Made by a program: the position numbers and the translations under genes
Source: Tumebacillus algifaecis
GTDB lineage: Bacteria; Bacillota; Bacilli; Tumebacillales; Tumebacillaceae
Direction of reading: 5' to 3'
NCBI RefSeq assembly: GCF_002243515.1
Contig: NZ_CP022657.1
Span: 1,975,001-2,039,000, forward strand
DNA length: 64,000 nucleotides
Notes under the pieces: model-generated
Told to the model about the DNA's origin: nothing
What the model saw: the letters and a program-made list of their open reading frames with translations, nothing else
The model's database searches: none
Shown here: one piece after another, positions 5,382 through 23,976 of the stretch
Position numbering within the stretch: position 1 is the stretch's first letter
Layout: each line of letters begins with the position of its first letter

Positions 5382-5418
5382 AAAAAAGGAGATTCCACGA
5401 GTGGGAATCTCCTTTTTT
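5382..5418. terminator. Bidirectional intrinsic terminator
   Basis: AAAAAAGGAGATTCC and GGAATCTCCTTTTTT form a long stem. It serves the PHP gene on the plus strand and the peptide/regulator unit on the minus strand. Confidence 0.88.
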
Positions 5419-5424
5419 ATGCAA

Positions 5425-5580
5425 TTATTCTGGAGGACAAAGTTCAGGGTGCAGGACCAACTGTCCGCTCTTGCATTTGGTCCAGATTGGCGGATCATCC
5501 GCAAAGAACGTTTTGTCATATAGGTAAAGTCCGATCAAAAGAGCGGACCCAATCACAACAACCAAAGCGACCTTCTTCAT
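5425..5580 (-). CDS. Candidate exported signalling peptide, 51 aa
   Basis: A short ORF immediately downstream of the HTH-TPR regulator. ATG at 5580 has an AGAGGAG ribosome site that overlaps the regulator's stop codon, with 14 bases between the genes. The product starts MKK, then a hydrophobic helix (VALVVVIGSALLIGLYLY), then about 30 polar residues with two Cys and a Pro-rich end (LHPELCPPE). This is the arrangement of the propeptide genes that follow NprR-, PlcR- or Rap-type receptors: export signal plus a C-terminal segment cut to a short pheromone. That role is inferred from layout and shape; the sequence matches no pheromone I know. It could instead be a small membrane protein. Confidence 0.65.
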   Translation of the reverse strand: MKKVALVVVIGSALLIGLYLYDKTFFADDPPIWTKCKSGQLVLHPELCPPE

Positions 5581-5594
5581 ATTTCTCTGCTCCT

Positions 5595-6911
5595 CTACGA
5601 TTTTTTAAGCAGTTTTCGGTAATGCTGATTTGCCAGACGCACATAGGAGACAGCCAGCCGTTCCCTCCCTTTTTCGATGTAATAATCCCCCAACTTCTCC
5701 GCAGCTTCGGCCAATTCGGTGGAAAACTCCAGTTTTTCAAACGCTTCGATCGCTTGTTTGTAAAAGTGAACAAATTCTTCTTCTTGATTTTGCATCAGGG
5801 AAAGGTCACCCAAATGACGCTTGGTGACAGCCAATTGCAGGGGATTATTCATCTGTTCGGCACGTCTTAGGCAATCTTGGAGGATGTTTCGCGCCTCTTC
5901 AAGGTTGCCGTTTTTCATTTCGACTTTGGCTAGGGCATGCAAAGTGTTCTGAATACTGGGGGTGTCGTTCGATTGCCGTTTCAACTTGAGTGAGCGCAAA
6001 AAATACTTGCGTGCTTTTTCATGACTGCCGACCTTGATCTCTACTTCTCCGAGATTGTGATAGCAGCGAGCCAAGGATCGGACATCGGTGGTCTGGCTCA
6101 GGATGCGAATGGAGCGTTCGATGTGTCGCCTGGCGATGTTGACACGGCCTTGATTTTTATACGCAGTTCCCATCATCATCAAGGTTCGTCCGATCTTGAT
6201 GATTTCGTCGAGATGTTCGTACTGCGCGAGGGCTTGTTCTGAATACCAGATGCAGCCTTCCCAGTTTTGCAGCATTTGCTTGATCAGCGCCATGCTGAAA
6301 TAGAGATTGCCCGCTTCGGTCGTTGCGGATGGATCTTCTACAAGATGTTCCGCTTCCCGGAGCAAGTCGAAAGCTTCCCACATCTTGCCGACCATATAGG
6401 AGTTGCGGCTTAACGTGATGTAGGTGTTGAGTACACGATCCAGATGCGGCTCGGGGTCGAAAACGCGCAACGCTTCTCGTCCCCAGTCTGTCGATGTGCT
6501 GTATTTGGCAGTTGAGTGGTAAAGGAGGCAAAGCATGTAGGAACTTTCCTGTAAATAGAGCATGTTGTTCTTCGAAAGCGCTTCCGTATAGAGCTTATGC
6601 AGGACTTCTATCGCCTCTGCCGATTGATTAATCTCGCGAAGGCGGCGTGCCGTTTGAAGAAGCTCGTCCAACCACTCTTCTTGGAGGTCGTGCATTTGCA
6701 TCAGGTCTTGTACGCTGCAACTCAAGCGCGAGGCAAAGACCTCCAAGATTTCCGGCGTGACATGTAATTTGCCTCGCTCGATCAAGGAGATCGACTGTAC
6801 AGAAAAGAGACCTGCAGCCAGATGTGACTGGGTCAATCCAATCGCCTTACGACGATCACGAATATTCTGACCAATTTGAATGGATTGCCGTTTCTTCCAA
6901 GCCTGATTCAT
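5595..6911 (-). CDS. HTH-TPR transcription regulator (NprR/RRNPP-like)
   Basis: A 438-residue regulator. An N-terminal XRE-type helix-turn-helix (about residues 10-65, GQNIRDRRKAIGLTQSHLAAG then SISLIERGK) is followed by a long array of tetratricopeptide repeats to the C-terminus (units such as ARCYHNLGEVEIKVGSHEKA). This is the architecture of NprR and other peptide-sensing RRNPP proteins, where the TPR groove binds a re-imported peptide. ATG 6911 is used because GGAGGTTGG lies six bases upstream; the longer frame to 6956 has no such site. A small exported peptide is encoded directly downstream and a small HTH gene diverges upstream. The target genes and peptide binding are inferred, not shown. 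Confidence 0.85.
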   Translation of the reverse strand: MNQAWKKRQSIQIGQNIRDRRKAIGLTQSHLAAGLFSVQSISLIERGKLHVTPEILEVFASRLSCSVQDLMQMHDLQEEWLDELLQTARRLREINQSAEAIEVLHKLYTEALSKNNMLYLQESSYMLCLLYHSTAKYSTSTDWGREALRVFDPEPHLDRVLNTYITLSRNSYMVGKMWEAFDLLREAEHLVEDPSATTEAGNLYFSMALIKQMLQNWEGCIWYSEQALAQYEHLDEIIKIGRTLMMMGTAYKNQGRVNIARRHIERSIRILSQTTDVRSLARCYHNLGEVEIKVGSHEKARKYFLRSLKLKRQSNDTPSIQNTLHALAKVEMKNGNLEEARNILQDCLRRAEQMNNPLQLAVTKRHLGDLSLMQNQEEEFVHFYKQAIEAFEKLEFSTELAEAAEKLGDYYIEKGRERLAVSYVRLANQHYRKLLKKS

Positions 6912-7000: not shown

Positions 7001-7062
7001 TTTGTCGAACATTGTCGATGTAGGTTTAATTAAAGCGAATACGTACATTGTTCGAAAAATTA
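7001..7062. promoter_or_regulatory. Candidate operator pair between divergent HTH genes
   Basis: Two inverted copies of the same element lie in the regulator / small-HTH intergenic gap: TTTGTCGAACATTGT at 7001-7015 and, on the opposite strand, TTTTTCGAACAATGT (7046-7060). Spaced inverted copies around the likely divergent promoters suit binding by one of the two HTH proteins. This is inference from symmetry. Confidence 0.45.
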
Positions 7063-7148: not shown

Positions 7149-7361
7149 ATGAGTGATTTGACAATCGGGATGCAACTAAAAAAGATCAGAAAACAAACGG
7201 GTTTGTCGGTAAAAGAACTGGCTGATCGTGCAGGAGTTTCACAATCATACATCTATGCGATTGAGTCGGGAAACCGTGGCGCAAACGCTACCAAGCTGTC
7301 GAGCATCGCCCACGCGTTGGGAATTCCGGTTGCCGACCTGTATGATGTGTGGAGTCTCTAA
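7149..7361 (+). CDS. Small XRE-family HTH regulator, 70 aa
   Basis: A stand-alone helix-turn-helix protein (SinR/Xre size class): IGMQLKKIRKQTGLSVKELA, ADRAGVSQSYIYAIESGNRG for the recognition helix, then helix 4-5 (LSSIAHALGIPVADLYDV). It has no sensing domain. ATG 7149 follows GGGGAGTCAG. A nine-codon ORF (7123-7152, SD GGGGAAAG) ends by overlapping this ATG (ATGA) and might couple translation. It is transcribed away from the HTH-TPR gene and may share operators with it. The target is unknown. Confidence 0.88.
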   Translation: MSDLTIGMQLKKIRKQTGLSVKELADRAGVSQSYIYAIESGNRGANATKLSSIAHALGIPVADLYDVWSL

Positions 7362-7386
7362 CTTTAATAAATGAGGCTAAATCAAC

Positions 7387-7428
7387 AAAGGAAAAGGACA
7401 TGTCTGGGTGGACATGTCCTTTTCCTTT
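7387..7428. terminator. Long perfect hairpin terminator
   Basis: An 18-bp perfect stem (AAAGGAAAAGGACATGTC and its complement) with loop TGGGTG follows the small HTH gene. The stem is A-rich on the left arm and T-rich on the right arm, so it can end transcription from the left, and plausibly from either side. Confidence 0.75.
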
Positions 7429-7479
7429 GCCATATGGTATAACAAAAGTAGAAAGAGTTGCCTAGAGGAGGGAATGCGA

Positions 7480-19142: not shown

Positions 19143-20435
19143 GTGTCCACGCTTGGCGAGAAAATCCGCATGTTGCGGAAAAAAGTCGGTCTGTCACAGC
19201 GTGCTTTAGCAGAAGGATTGGTTACCAAAAGCATGATCTCGCAGATTGAAACCAACAAAATCCAACCTTCTGCCGATCTGTTGACGAGGATTGCACAACG
19301 GCTTTCTGTGCGTCCAGAGCAGTTGTTGCCGACAAAACATGAAGATCATGAACGTCTGGTCTGCTACAAGCAGGCTCAGGCGTTTTTAACATTGCGACAC
19401 TTTGCCGAAGCGTTACCGTTGCTACAAACATGTTTGGAAGATCCCCACCCCTCATGGTCGCTGTTGCGGTTAACGTATCGGACGGCTTGCTGTCAGCAGC
19501 AGTTGGGGGCATATCAGGAGGCGCGGCGGCTCTATGAAAAGGCGTTGCACCATGCGATTTGTGAAGAGCAGACTGGTGAGATGATCCGTCTTCATGTGCG
19601 GCTTGGGGAAGTGGCACAGTCGTTAGGGCAATTGGAACTGGCGTTGGTCGAGTGGCGGCGGGCCGAGCGGGAACTAGAACGCCATCCTGCTCCACCAGAA
19701 GAGCCGCTTCTAGCGCTCGATGTCTGTTTGTATCTGGCGAACGGACTGCGCAAATTGGGCGGCTCACGGGAGGCGCTGCATCATTATCGGCTTGCCGAGC
19801 AGTTTTTGCAACGTCTGCCGGAGCAGACGAGAAGACGCGCTGAGGTGCAGTTCGGCATTGGCTTGGTGCTGGAGAAGCTGGAGCAGTTTGAGACAGCAGA
19901 AAGCTGTTTCGAGCATGCTGCTTCGTTGTATCTAAGAGCGATCGACAAGCGGATGGCGACGCTCGCGAGGATCTCCCGCGGGCGTTTGCTCGGCAAGACG
20001 GGGCGGCATGAGGAAGCGTTGACCGAATTGAGAGCTAGCTTGCAGGAGGCGAAGAGCTTGAGTTGTCCAGAAGTGGAGGTGCGCGCCTATTGTGAGTTGA
20101 GCCAAGCGTGCGAGGCGATGGGGAAGCGGATGCTGGCCGAGTCACTTTTGCAAAAGGGGCTTGCTGTGAAGTGCGAATGCCCTGTCGAGCGTGGTTTGAC
20201 CTTTTTGGCACTGGCCGAGCTGCATAGGGATGCTCAGCGTTACGAGGAAGCGTTGGAAGCGGTTAGGCAGGCGTTATACTTGTTGCATGAGAACATGGAA
20301 GAGTTACTCGTGGTCTATCAACTGTTGACCGACTTGTACAAGCGGCAGGAGGATTACGAGCAGGCAAGCTTTTGGGCGGAACGTGCCGATCGTTTGGTTG
20401 GCAAGCAGATGCAACAGCGGGGCTGGAAAGCATAG
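19143..20435 (+). CDS. HTH-TPR transcription regulator, second copy
   Basis: A 430-residue protein with an N-terminal XRE helix-turn-helix (GEKIRMLRKKVGLSQRALAE, SMISQIETNKIQPSADLLTR) and TPR repeats through the rest (for example YQEARRLYEKALHHAICEEQ and RYEEALEAVRQALYLL). It is the same architecture as the 5595-6911 gene, but here no small peptide gene follows; a terminator comes two bases after the stop. The GTG start has no ribosome site of its own and sits two bases after the preceding stop, which suggests coupled translation. The ligand may be a peptide encoded elsewhere or a protein. Confidence 0.85.
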   Translation: MSTLGEKIRMLRKKVGLSQRALAEGLVTKSMISQIETNKIQPSADLLTRIAQRLSVRPEQLLPTKHEDHERLVCYKQAQAFLTLRHFAEALPLLQTCLEDPHPSWSLLRLTYRTACCQQQLGAYQEARRLYEKALHHAICEEQTGEMIRLHVRLGEVAQSLGQLELALVEWRRAERELERHPAPPEEPLLALDVCLYLANGLRKLGGSREALHHYRLAEQFLQRLPEQTRRRAEVQFGIGLVLEKLEQFETAESCFEHAASLYLRAIDKRMATLARISRGRLLGKTGRHEEALTELRASLQEAKSLSCPEVEVRAYCELSQACEAMGKRMLAESLLQKGLAVKCECPVERGLTFLALAELHRDAQRYEEALEAVRQALYLLHENMEELLVVYQLLTDLYKRQEDYEQASFWAERADRLVGKQMQQRGWKA

Positions 20436-23436: not shown

Positions 23437-23976
23437 TTATTGTTGGGTATCAACCCAGTGCAAAGACGGGTAGAGCACGAAATCAACACGGCCCTTGAGA
23501 ATTTCTTCGGGTACGAACCCGACACGCGGATCGCGAGAATCGAGCGACGCGCCAGGGTGCCGATTGTCGCCCATCACGAAGACGTGTCCGTCTGGCACGA
23601 TGGTCGGCGGGAAATCATTGGTGATCGTGTCGATGTACTTCTCCGCCTGTTTCTCTCCGTTGAGGTAGAGCACGCCTTGGCTGATCTTCACTTCATCGCC
23701 CGACAGTCCGATGATGCGTTTAATGTAGTCGCGAGTGTCGTTCGGTGCAGGGAAGACGACGATGTCGCCGCGCTTTGGTTCTTCCAAGTCGTAGGCTAAT
23801 CGATTCAGATAGACGCGCTCATGGTTTTCTAAGGTCGGTTGCATCGATTGACCTTCAATCTTGGTGATCGCAAAGACGTGCTCGCGGATGAGGAGATTGA
23901 TGAGAAAAGCGACTACTAAAAGGGATGCCCAGCTGAGCCCTTCGCGAAGCCATTTGTTTTTGATTTTTTTGAACAT
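23437..23976 (-). CDS. lepB: Signal peptidase I
   Basis: A 179-residue membrane-bound serine protease that cleaves signal peptides outside the membrane. One N-terminal membrane helix (LSWASLLVVAFLINLLI) precedes the catalytic domain: box B with Ser in IEGQSMQPTL, box C RGDIVVF, box D with the catalytic Lys in DYIKRIIGLSGDEV, and box E GDNRHPGASLDSR. The size fits Gram-positive Sip proteins. The open reading frame begins at ATG 23976 with GGGGGTT-type upstream bases. Many of the secreted proteins predicted here would be its substrates. Confidence 0.95.
   Translation of the reverse strand: MFKKIKNKWLREGLSWASLLVVAFLINLLIREHVFAITKIEGQSMQPTLENHERVYLNRLAYDLEEPKRGDIVVFPAPNDTRDYIKRIIGLSGDEVKISQGVLYLNGEKQAEKYIDTITNDFPPTIVPDGHVFVMGDNRHPGASLDSRDPRVGFVPEEILKGRVDFVLYPSLHWVDTQQ

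Follow-up and report, generated by a model that had tools for sequence, protein, structure and literature searches.

Peptide-signalling pairs of the RRNPP kind are well described (PMC10075063, PMC12700828, PMC7425212, PMC9765709, PMC11343458, PMC4970707; these papers, and PMC4147580, are cited here for the content of excerpts). The five features by which such pairs are recognised in PMC10075063 are a propeptide of 10-100 residues, its export by Sec, a receptor of 250-500 residues, the presence of TPRs and the adjacency of the two genes. NprR-NprX of the Bacillus cereus group is linked to sporulation (PMC4970707), and its active peptide, SKPDIVG, is internal, located in the C-terminal region of NprX (PMC4147580). 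In the PlcR-PapR system the receptor gene is followed by the gene of a propeptide with a putative Sec signal, the peptide PapR7 (ADLPFEF) is the C-terminal end of this propeptide, and plcR is under negative control of Spo0A (PMC4147580); PlcR has five TPRs (PMC12700828). The AloR-AloP systems of the Paenibacillaceae consist of an HTH-TPR receptor and a downstream propeptide, occurring as many paralogous pairs, with SHGRGG as the peptide of AloP13 and with a spo0E-like gene behind six of the Alo systems (PMC7425212). In the RRNPP_Detector survey, which covered all 7,974 complete genomes of Firmicutes available at the time, ten gene clusters with a candidate system are reported for the Alicyclobacillaceae (PMC10075063), the family to which Tumebacillus belongs in the NCBI taxonomy, and the Tumebacillus avium pair discussed below may already be among these candidates. 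In our literature search no text was found that names both Tumebacillus and RRNPP; the texts with Tumebacillus and "quorum sensing" are, judged by title and start of abstract, mostly community, soil or plant studies, one of them concerning Bacillus surfactin.

The locus described here lies in a 64-kb stretch of DNA, analysed as a whole and referred to as the window. It encodes a receptor of 438 residues with TPRs and a propeptide of 51 residues, the two genes being 14 bases apart, so that four of the five features listed above are seen here, while the fifth, export by Sec, is less certain for this copy. We consider the two genes a probable peptide-signalling pair of the RRNPP type that has been passed on vertically across the family, with the peptide (A)DDPPIW acting via the TPR groove of the receptor on the control region of the receptor gene itself. 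Several findings support well the assignment as receptor and pheromone: the pair is conserved, the small protein is shaped like a signal peptide, the regulator is modelled with nine TPRs, and paralogous pairs are many. The first-pass annotation had proposed a new cell-to-cell signalling pair; the pair stands, being conserved in all seven genomes of the family sample and accompanied by paralogues, but the novelty of the signalling does not, since the pair is probably a new member of the RRNPP kind. Pairs of this kind are known; this one, however, is shared by the whole family as sampled, and its likely signal is not where it would be expected in the peptide.

Layout, fold and conservation of the pair

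The regulator gene (5595-6911, minus strand; ATG start, GGAGG upstream) encodes an XRE-type HTH at the N-terminus followed by nine TPR hairpins, and the propeptide ORF (5425-5580, minus strand, ATG start) has a Shine-Dalgarno sequence, GAGGAG, whose first base is the last one of the regulator's stop codon, TAG. This arrangement, as well as the make-up of the small protein, with a Lys-Lys start, one hydrophobic segment and a polar part with two cysteines, is just as the first-pass annotation had read it, although the strand had not been given there. A terminator-like hairpin (5382-5418, unstranded; folding energy -22.4 kcal/mol, z -6.05) stands where the propeptide gene and the PHP gene converge, and an inverted repeat resembling it is seen by eye at all seven orthologous loci. 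On the other side of the regulator, a divergent HTH-only gene of 70 residues (7149-7361, plus strand; HTH_3 at 3.6e-16) shares the control region with the regulator, and a strong hairpin (7386-7429, unstranded; -32.2 kcal/mol, z -6.79) lies directly 3' of it. In a scan for sigma-70 promoters and terminators the matches are no more frequent than in shuffled sequence, and these two hairpins are not listed by it.

In the regulator, HTH_3 of Pfam is matched at residues 17-70 (2.6e-6) and several TPR families are above their cut-offs, TPR_12 at 5.6e-25. The AlphaFold model (pLDDT 81.6, pTM 0.48, calculated with 3 sequences; the HTH part at pLDDT 57-79) consists of the HTH and nine helical hairpins, as counted by eye, so the number of nine TPRs is predicted by the model only. 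When solved structures are compared with the model, LGN/Pins matches the TPR part with Z up to 23.1, apo NprR (5dbk) has Z 22.1 over 324 residues with an rmsd of 15.2, RapI has Z 19.9, and PlcR-PapR has Z 18.6 over 204 residues. The sequence search finds NprR at E 3.8e-8, ranked behind engineered TPRs and Pins. Eukaryotic TPR proteins of the LGN/Pins type equal or beat NprR, both by model and by sequence; their leading places in the fold searches are taken as generic TPR likeness, and the fold therefore fits a peptide sensor without proving one. Among the seven orthologues the TPR helices A and B are conserved to the same degree (0.66 and 0.64, p 0.81), and no claim of co-variation is therefore made.

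The family sample consists of seven genomes, three from the genus of the window (G000, which is the genome of the window, 4.52 Mb; G001; and G002, T. avium AR23208) and four members of another genus (G003 to G006). Each genome has one regulator match at E 1e-60 or better, the orthologues of the other six being 55-90% identical and all being 438-441 residues long, whereas the next match by E-value within G000 has 22% identity. The HTH-only gene is also present in all seven, with 86-99% identity in the other six, and the gene order thiE, thiS, thiG, PHP, regulator, HTH-only, MBL-type is identical throughout, the thi and MBL names being what we take these neighbours to be. The first-pass annotation had suggested looking for the pair in related genomes, and the small ORF is indeed found behind each of the seven orthologous regulators, 14 bases after the stop codon in six and 20 bases in one; its absence there, which had been named as counter-evidence, is not encountered.

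The regulators and eight neighbour proteins give trees of identical topology, with 97-100% support, in favour of vertical inheritance. G005 has DxPPIW as in the genus of the window, yet both of these trees place it within the other genus; in a FastTree tree of 102 receptors (from G000 and G002, with the seven orthologues and 23 receptors of other families; many branches are long and the deep placement is unsure) it joins the genus of the window instead, with support 82. From its place in the first two trees, the DxPPIW shared by G005 and the genus of the window is taken as ancestral. In the FastTree tree the orthologues form a single, fully supported group on a long stem.

The best match of the regulator outside the family, among the 61 genomes searched, is in G049 (27% identity, E 5.9e-30), and this nearest outside receptor is not followed by such a small ORF. 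Of the 23 receptors of other families that were read, eight have a signal-peptide-like ORF in the scanned range, none of which has PPxW. The pair as such is confined to one family among the 61 genomes searched. Tandem propeptides behind HTH-TPR genes are also seen in other Bacilli (L034, L038, L041, L047), with QSEPGGL, AVDEHGY, ASDEHIYN and GLSHDFPD units; the propeptide with the GLSHDFPD units sits 115 bases behind the stop codon of its receptor.

Paralogous receptors and their propeptides

The paralogues of the regulator were studied in 98 stretches from four genomes, 21 of G000, 35 of G002, 21 of G005 and 21 of G004 (L051-L070, L072, L074, L075 and L077-L150). The G000 stretches cover 29 of the 30 match places, those of G002, G005 and G004 are covered in part, and the paralogues of G001, G003 and G006 were left out. 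A propeptide was called when a signal-peptide-like ORF starts between -60 and +120 bases from the stop codon of the receptor. Before weeding, 56 of the 124 HTH-TPR ORFs have such an ORF (13/25 in G000, 24/50 in G002, 10/24 in G005 and 9/25 in G004). Four matches were struck by eye, those of L061, L067 and L115 and the L096 match beginning MVSVK, leaving 52 of 124 in total and 11 of 25 in G000. For the other HTH-TPR gene of the window (19143-20435, L067) the first-pass annotation correctly saw no such small ORF: the 250 bases downstream of it hold none that resembles a signal peptide, the lone scan match being a TTG ORF among those struck. In the FastTree tree this gene groups with the T. avium receptor of L094, which is likewise without propeptide. 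The conclusion of the annotation, that the small gene does not simply go with this receptor family in the genome, is wrong, as these 11 of the 25 HTH-TPR ORFs of G000 carry a propeptide.

With strict spacing (-20 to +30, unweeded) the frequency is 54/124 for the HTH-TPR ORFs versus 9/142 for other long ORFs of the same stretches (Fisher p 4e-13). In the scan described first, such an ORF is seen in 1/35, 2/36, 3/39 and 8/32 of the control ORFs, the first two totals being 40 and 42 if ORFs too near an end are counted. Seven of the nine strict control matches are proteins of 391-402 residues encoded beside HTH-TPR genes. Five of these seven were scanned; all five match TPR families, three of them over the cut-off, and four match an HTH family under its cut-off. 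The control rate is therefore inflated by real systems, and, by their sequence matches, these 391-402-residue TPR proteins look like a second receptor class. They are encoded in L070 (953-2140), L100 (312-1499), L128 (27-1235) and L149 (604-1779) and, on the minus strand, in L130 3635-4816 and in L143, L144 3256-4443, and they have propeptides of their own, some of them tandem, for example with VAETIPIGG or WQLPDPE.

Tandem units are common in the propeptides of the paralogues, such as the five copies of AFINGGEPLSPKF in L065 and the EPPEPM-type units in L056 and L083. The G004 paralogue of L132 has ADQAPIL twice and the T. avium paralogue of L108 has ANNVPPIGY twice. Both units resemble the ADQPPIW/ADDPPIW of the orthologues, which supports the stretch right behind the signal peptide as the signal. 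PxP or PP after residue 22 is found in 35 of the 48 non-orthologous propeptides, as compared with 23.9 (sd 2.8, largest value 31) in 500 shuffles. The presence of a propeptide is clustered in the FastTree tree, with 16 changes versus 33.7 in shuffles.

A divergent HTH gene precedes, where the flank is long enough, 9/22 of the propeptide-bearing receptors of T. avium, 2/11 of G000, 2/9 of G004 and 1/8 of G005, the nine partners in T. avium being seven HTH-TPR and two HTH-only proteins. Such a gene also stands before receptors without propeptide (9/27 in T. avium, 3/14 in G000, 1/16 in G004 and 2/14 in G005), and the divergent partner was consequently rejected as a mark of pheromone pairs. At L057, L084, L085, L087, L088, L096, L107, L109 and L132 a propeptide-bearing receptor is divergent to an HTH-TPR receptor without propeptide, and eight of these nine partners end with RGI and two further residues, the last one being Leu.

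The conserved core of the small protein and alternative readings

The small protein can be divided into a putative signal-peptide region (residues 1-27; 5500-5580, minus strand), the proposed pheromone core DDPPIW (residues 28-33; 5482-5499, minus strand) and a variable C-terminal tail with two cysteines (residues 34-51; 5428-5481, minus strand). In the alignment of the seven peptides, which are 35-81 residues long in the other six genomes, only M1, K2, P30, P31 and W33 are invariant. The PP-x-W stands behind A-[DE]-[DNQ]-(E), directly after the likely signal-peptidase site. A Lys start and a hydrophobic run are present in all seven propeptides, and the (-3,-1) rule for signal-peptidase sites is obeyed in six (AMA, ALA, APA, ALA, VVA, APA) and broken in G000 (FFA). 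The small ORF reads as a propeptide probably exported by Sec, with less certainty for the G000 copy. Searches with HMMER against Pfam and NCBIfam gave only matches far under the cut-offs for the 51-residue protein (DUF6133, E 0.15; SE2200, E 0.011). The outcome which the first-pass annotation had set against a signalling peptide, conservation of the hydrophobic part only, is not what is found, as the invariant PPxW is outside the hydrophobic segment.

The same annotation had assumed the signal in the last 5-10 residues, and this assumption fails: these residues and the two cysteines vary and are absent in one species, and PPxW is conserved instead. From the alignment, the pheromone is most likely (A)DDPPIW. 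An RRNPP-type pair in which the signal is instead the Cys-bracketed tail, possibly closed by a disulphide, or the extreme C-terminus seems improbable to us. The tails after the core are 18, 17, 16, 48, 36, 3 and 49 residues long, from G000 to G006, and are partly Thr repeats, and behind Met-Lys it is PPxW alone that is invariant. The G005 propeptide, which ends with ..VVADQPPIWGKH and thus has only GKH, without cysteine, after the core, with a terminator close behind its stop codon, indicates that the tail is dispensable. Nevertheless, two or three cysteines are kept in the tails of the other six, so the tail may not be inert; CPExPP occurs near the tail end in every member of the other genus except G005 (G003, G004 and G006), and mature peptides are usually C-terminal according to the excerpts of PMC10075063 and PMC11343458. 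The NprX and PapRa pheromones, which are internal (PMC4147580), are a precedent for an internal pheromone. The tails of G003 and G006 (L073, L076) are of low complexity, Thr-rich and bracketed by cysteines.

It is similarly unlikely that the small protein is a stable membrane protein or a secreted protein other than a pheromone, acting on the regulator or elsewhere, such as a membrane anchor of the regulator or a co-expressed secreted mini-protein. The G000 copy has Phe at position -3 and a hydrophobic run of 17 residues, which count against the reading as a cleaved propeptide; because of this Phe the small protein of G000 may be stably membrane-bound. The Thr/Pro-rich tails of 36-49 residues in three orthologues also fit such a protein. 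The cleavage motif in six of the seven, the conserved motif outside the membrane segment and the tandem short motifs of the paralogous propeptides, which are as in known multi-pheromone propeptides (excerpts of PMC9765709 and PMC11343458), argue against it. That the ORF has arisen by chance behind a TPR regulator with another ligand is hardly credible: the 72 of 124 HTH-TPR ORFs without propeptide after weeding show that such regulators can exist alone, but a chance ORF is contradicted by its retention in all seven genomes with Shine-Dalgarno sequence, start codon, signal sequence and core. In addition, any two of the three species in the genus of the window differ in two of the seven A-DDPPIW codons, and all of these changes are synonymous.

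Control region, proposed mechanism and comparison with known systems

The control region between the regulator and the HTH-only gene is 237 bp long. It contains an exact match (7001-7009, plus strand) to TTTGTCRAA, which we take to be the Spo0A-box consensus, and a degenerate second copy at 7011-7019. The exact match is present in all seven orthologous promoters, 98-102 bases before the start of the regulator, and occurs in 0.6-1.1% of the single-base shuffles of each 240-base interval. The whole 64-kb window has five matches where 2.15 are expected, and the weight therefore lies in the position and conservation of the box and not in its presence. Beside it, a candidate operator is found, the A+T palindrome GTTTAATTAAAG (7024-7035, unstranded), which is CTTTAATTAAA plus G, C or A on the strand of the regulator; CTTTAATTAAA is kept in all seven orthologous promoters. 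A search of seven genomes, five of them from the family, finds the exact 12-mer CTTTAATTAAAG a single time in each of G001, G002 and G004, always in the interval between the regulator and HTH-only genes; it is absent from G000, whose copy has a different last base, and from G003, G007 and G008. The reversed control pattern also occurs once in each of two of these seven genomes (G001 and G007), so the rarity of the palindrome alone says little. G000 encodes Spo0A, six SBP_bac_5 peptide-binding proteins and two type I signal peptidases, one of which (PF10502) is inside the window (23473-23934, minus strand; 1998473-1998934 in G000).

For the reading of the locus as an RRNPP-type pair we infer the following sequence of events. 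The propeptide would leave the cell via Sec and be cleaved before D28 by signal peptidase, generating a product that begins with D-D-P-P-I-W, from which further proteolysis would trim the variable tail. The short (A)DDPPIW could then be taken up by an oligopeptide permease and bind to the regulator in its TPR groove, altering the DNA binding of the regulator. The likeliest first target of the regulator would be its own 237-bp control region, common to it and the divergent 70-residue HTH gene. The conservation of the palindrome and the Spo0A box in this region suggests a probable link of the switch with the Spo0A transition state, and the control of plcR by Spo0A (PMC4147580) is a precedent for such control of the regulator. 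A more far-reaching version is possible but rather doubtful: a family-wide switch tied to Spo0A, in which D-x-P-P-I-W is the N-terminus made by signal peptidase, released after loss of the hypervariable Cys-bracketed tail, which would act as a timer or species-specific gate, and in which the divergent HTH-only protein is toggled via an operator nearly unique in the genome, the whole being central to a network that comprises dozens of related Pro-rich pairs.

The RRNPP-type reading would place a peptide-sensing switch in every sampled genome of the family. The conserved core defines a concrete synthetic peptide, the tail-less orthologue of G005 is a natural experiment on the maturation of RRNPP propeptides, and the related pairs, many with tandem pheromone-like units, are a good system for the co-divergence of receptor and signal.

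NprR-NprX is similar to the pair described here in having an HTH with nine TPRs and a propeptide gene directly downstream, although the sequence similarity of NprR to the regulator is only remote and, as noted above, is equalled by that of eukaryotic TPR proteins. It differs in that the core studied here is right behind the signal-peptidase site and has PPxW, and in that the HTH-only gene is divergent. The PlcR-PapR type, with five TPRs in the receptor as compared with nine hairpins in the model, is not what is seen, even though ADDPPIW looks, by eye, loosely like PapR7. The Rap-Phr systems of Bacillus, with nine TPRs, an exported propeptide encoded downstream and a context of sporulation, resemble the pair in the modelled TPR number, the downstream propeptide and its probable export, and the likely link to sporulation, but Rap proteins are without HTH according to the excerpt of PMC9765709, whereas the regulator has its HTH_3 match at the N-terminus. 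With AloR-AloP the pair shares an HTH-TPR receptor, with nine TPRs in AloR as in the model, a downstream propeptide and many paralogous pairs per genome; however, the TPRs of AloR are described as degenerate in the excerpt of PMC12700828, whereas those of the regulator are well over the Pfam cut-offs, the AloP peptides are of a different type, and the neighbour is here a convergent PHP-domain gene instead of a spo0E-like gene.
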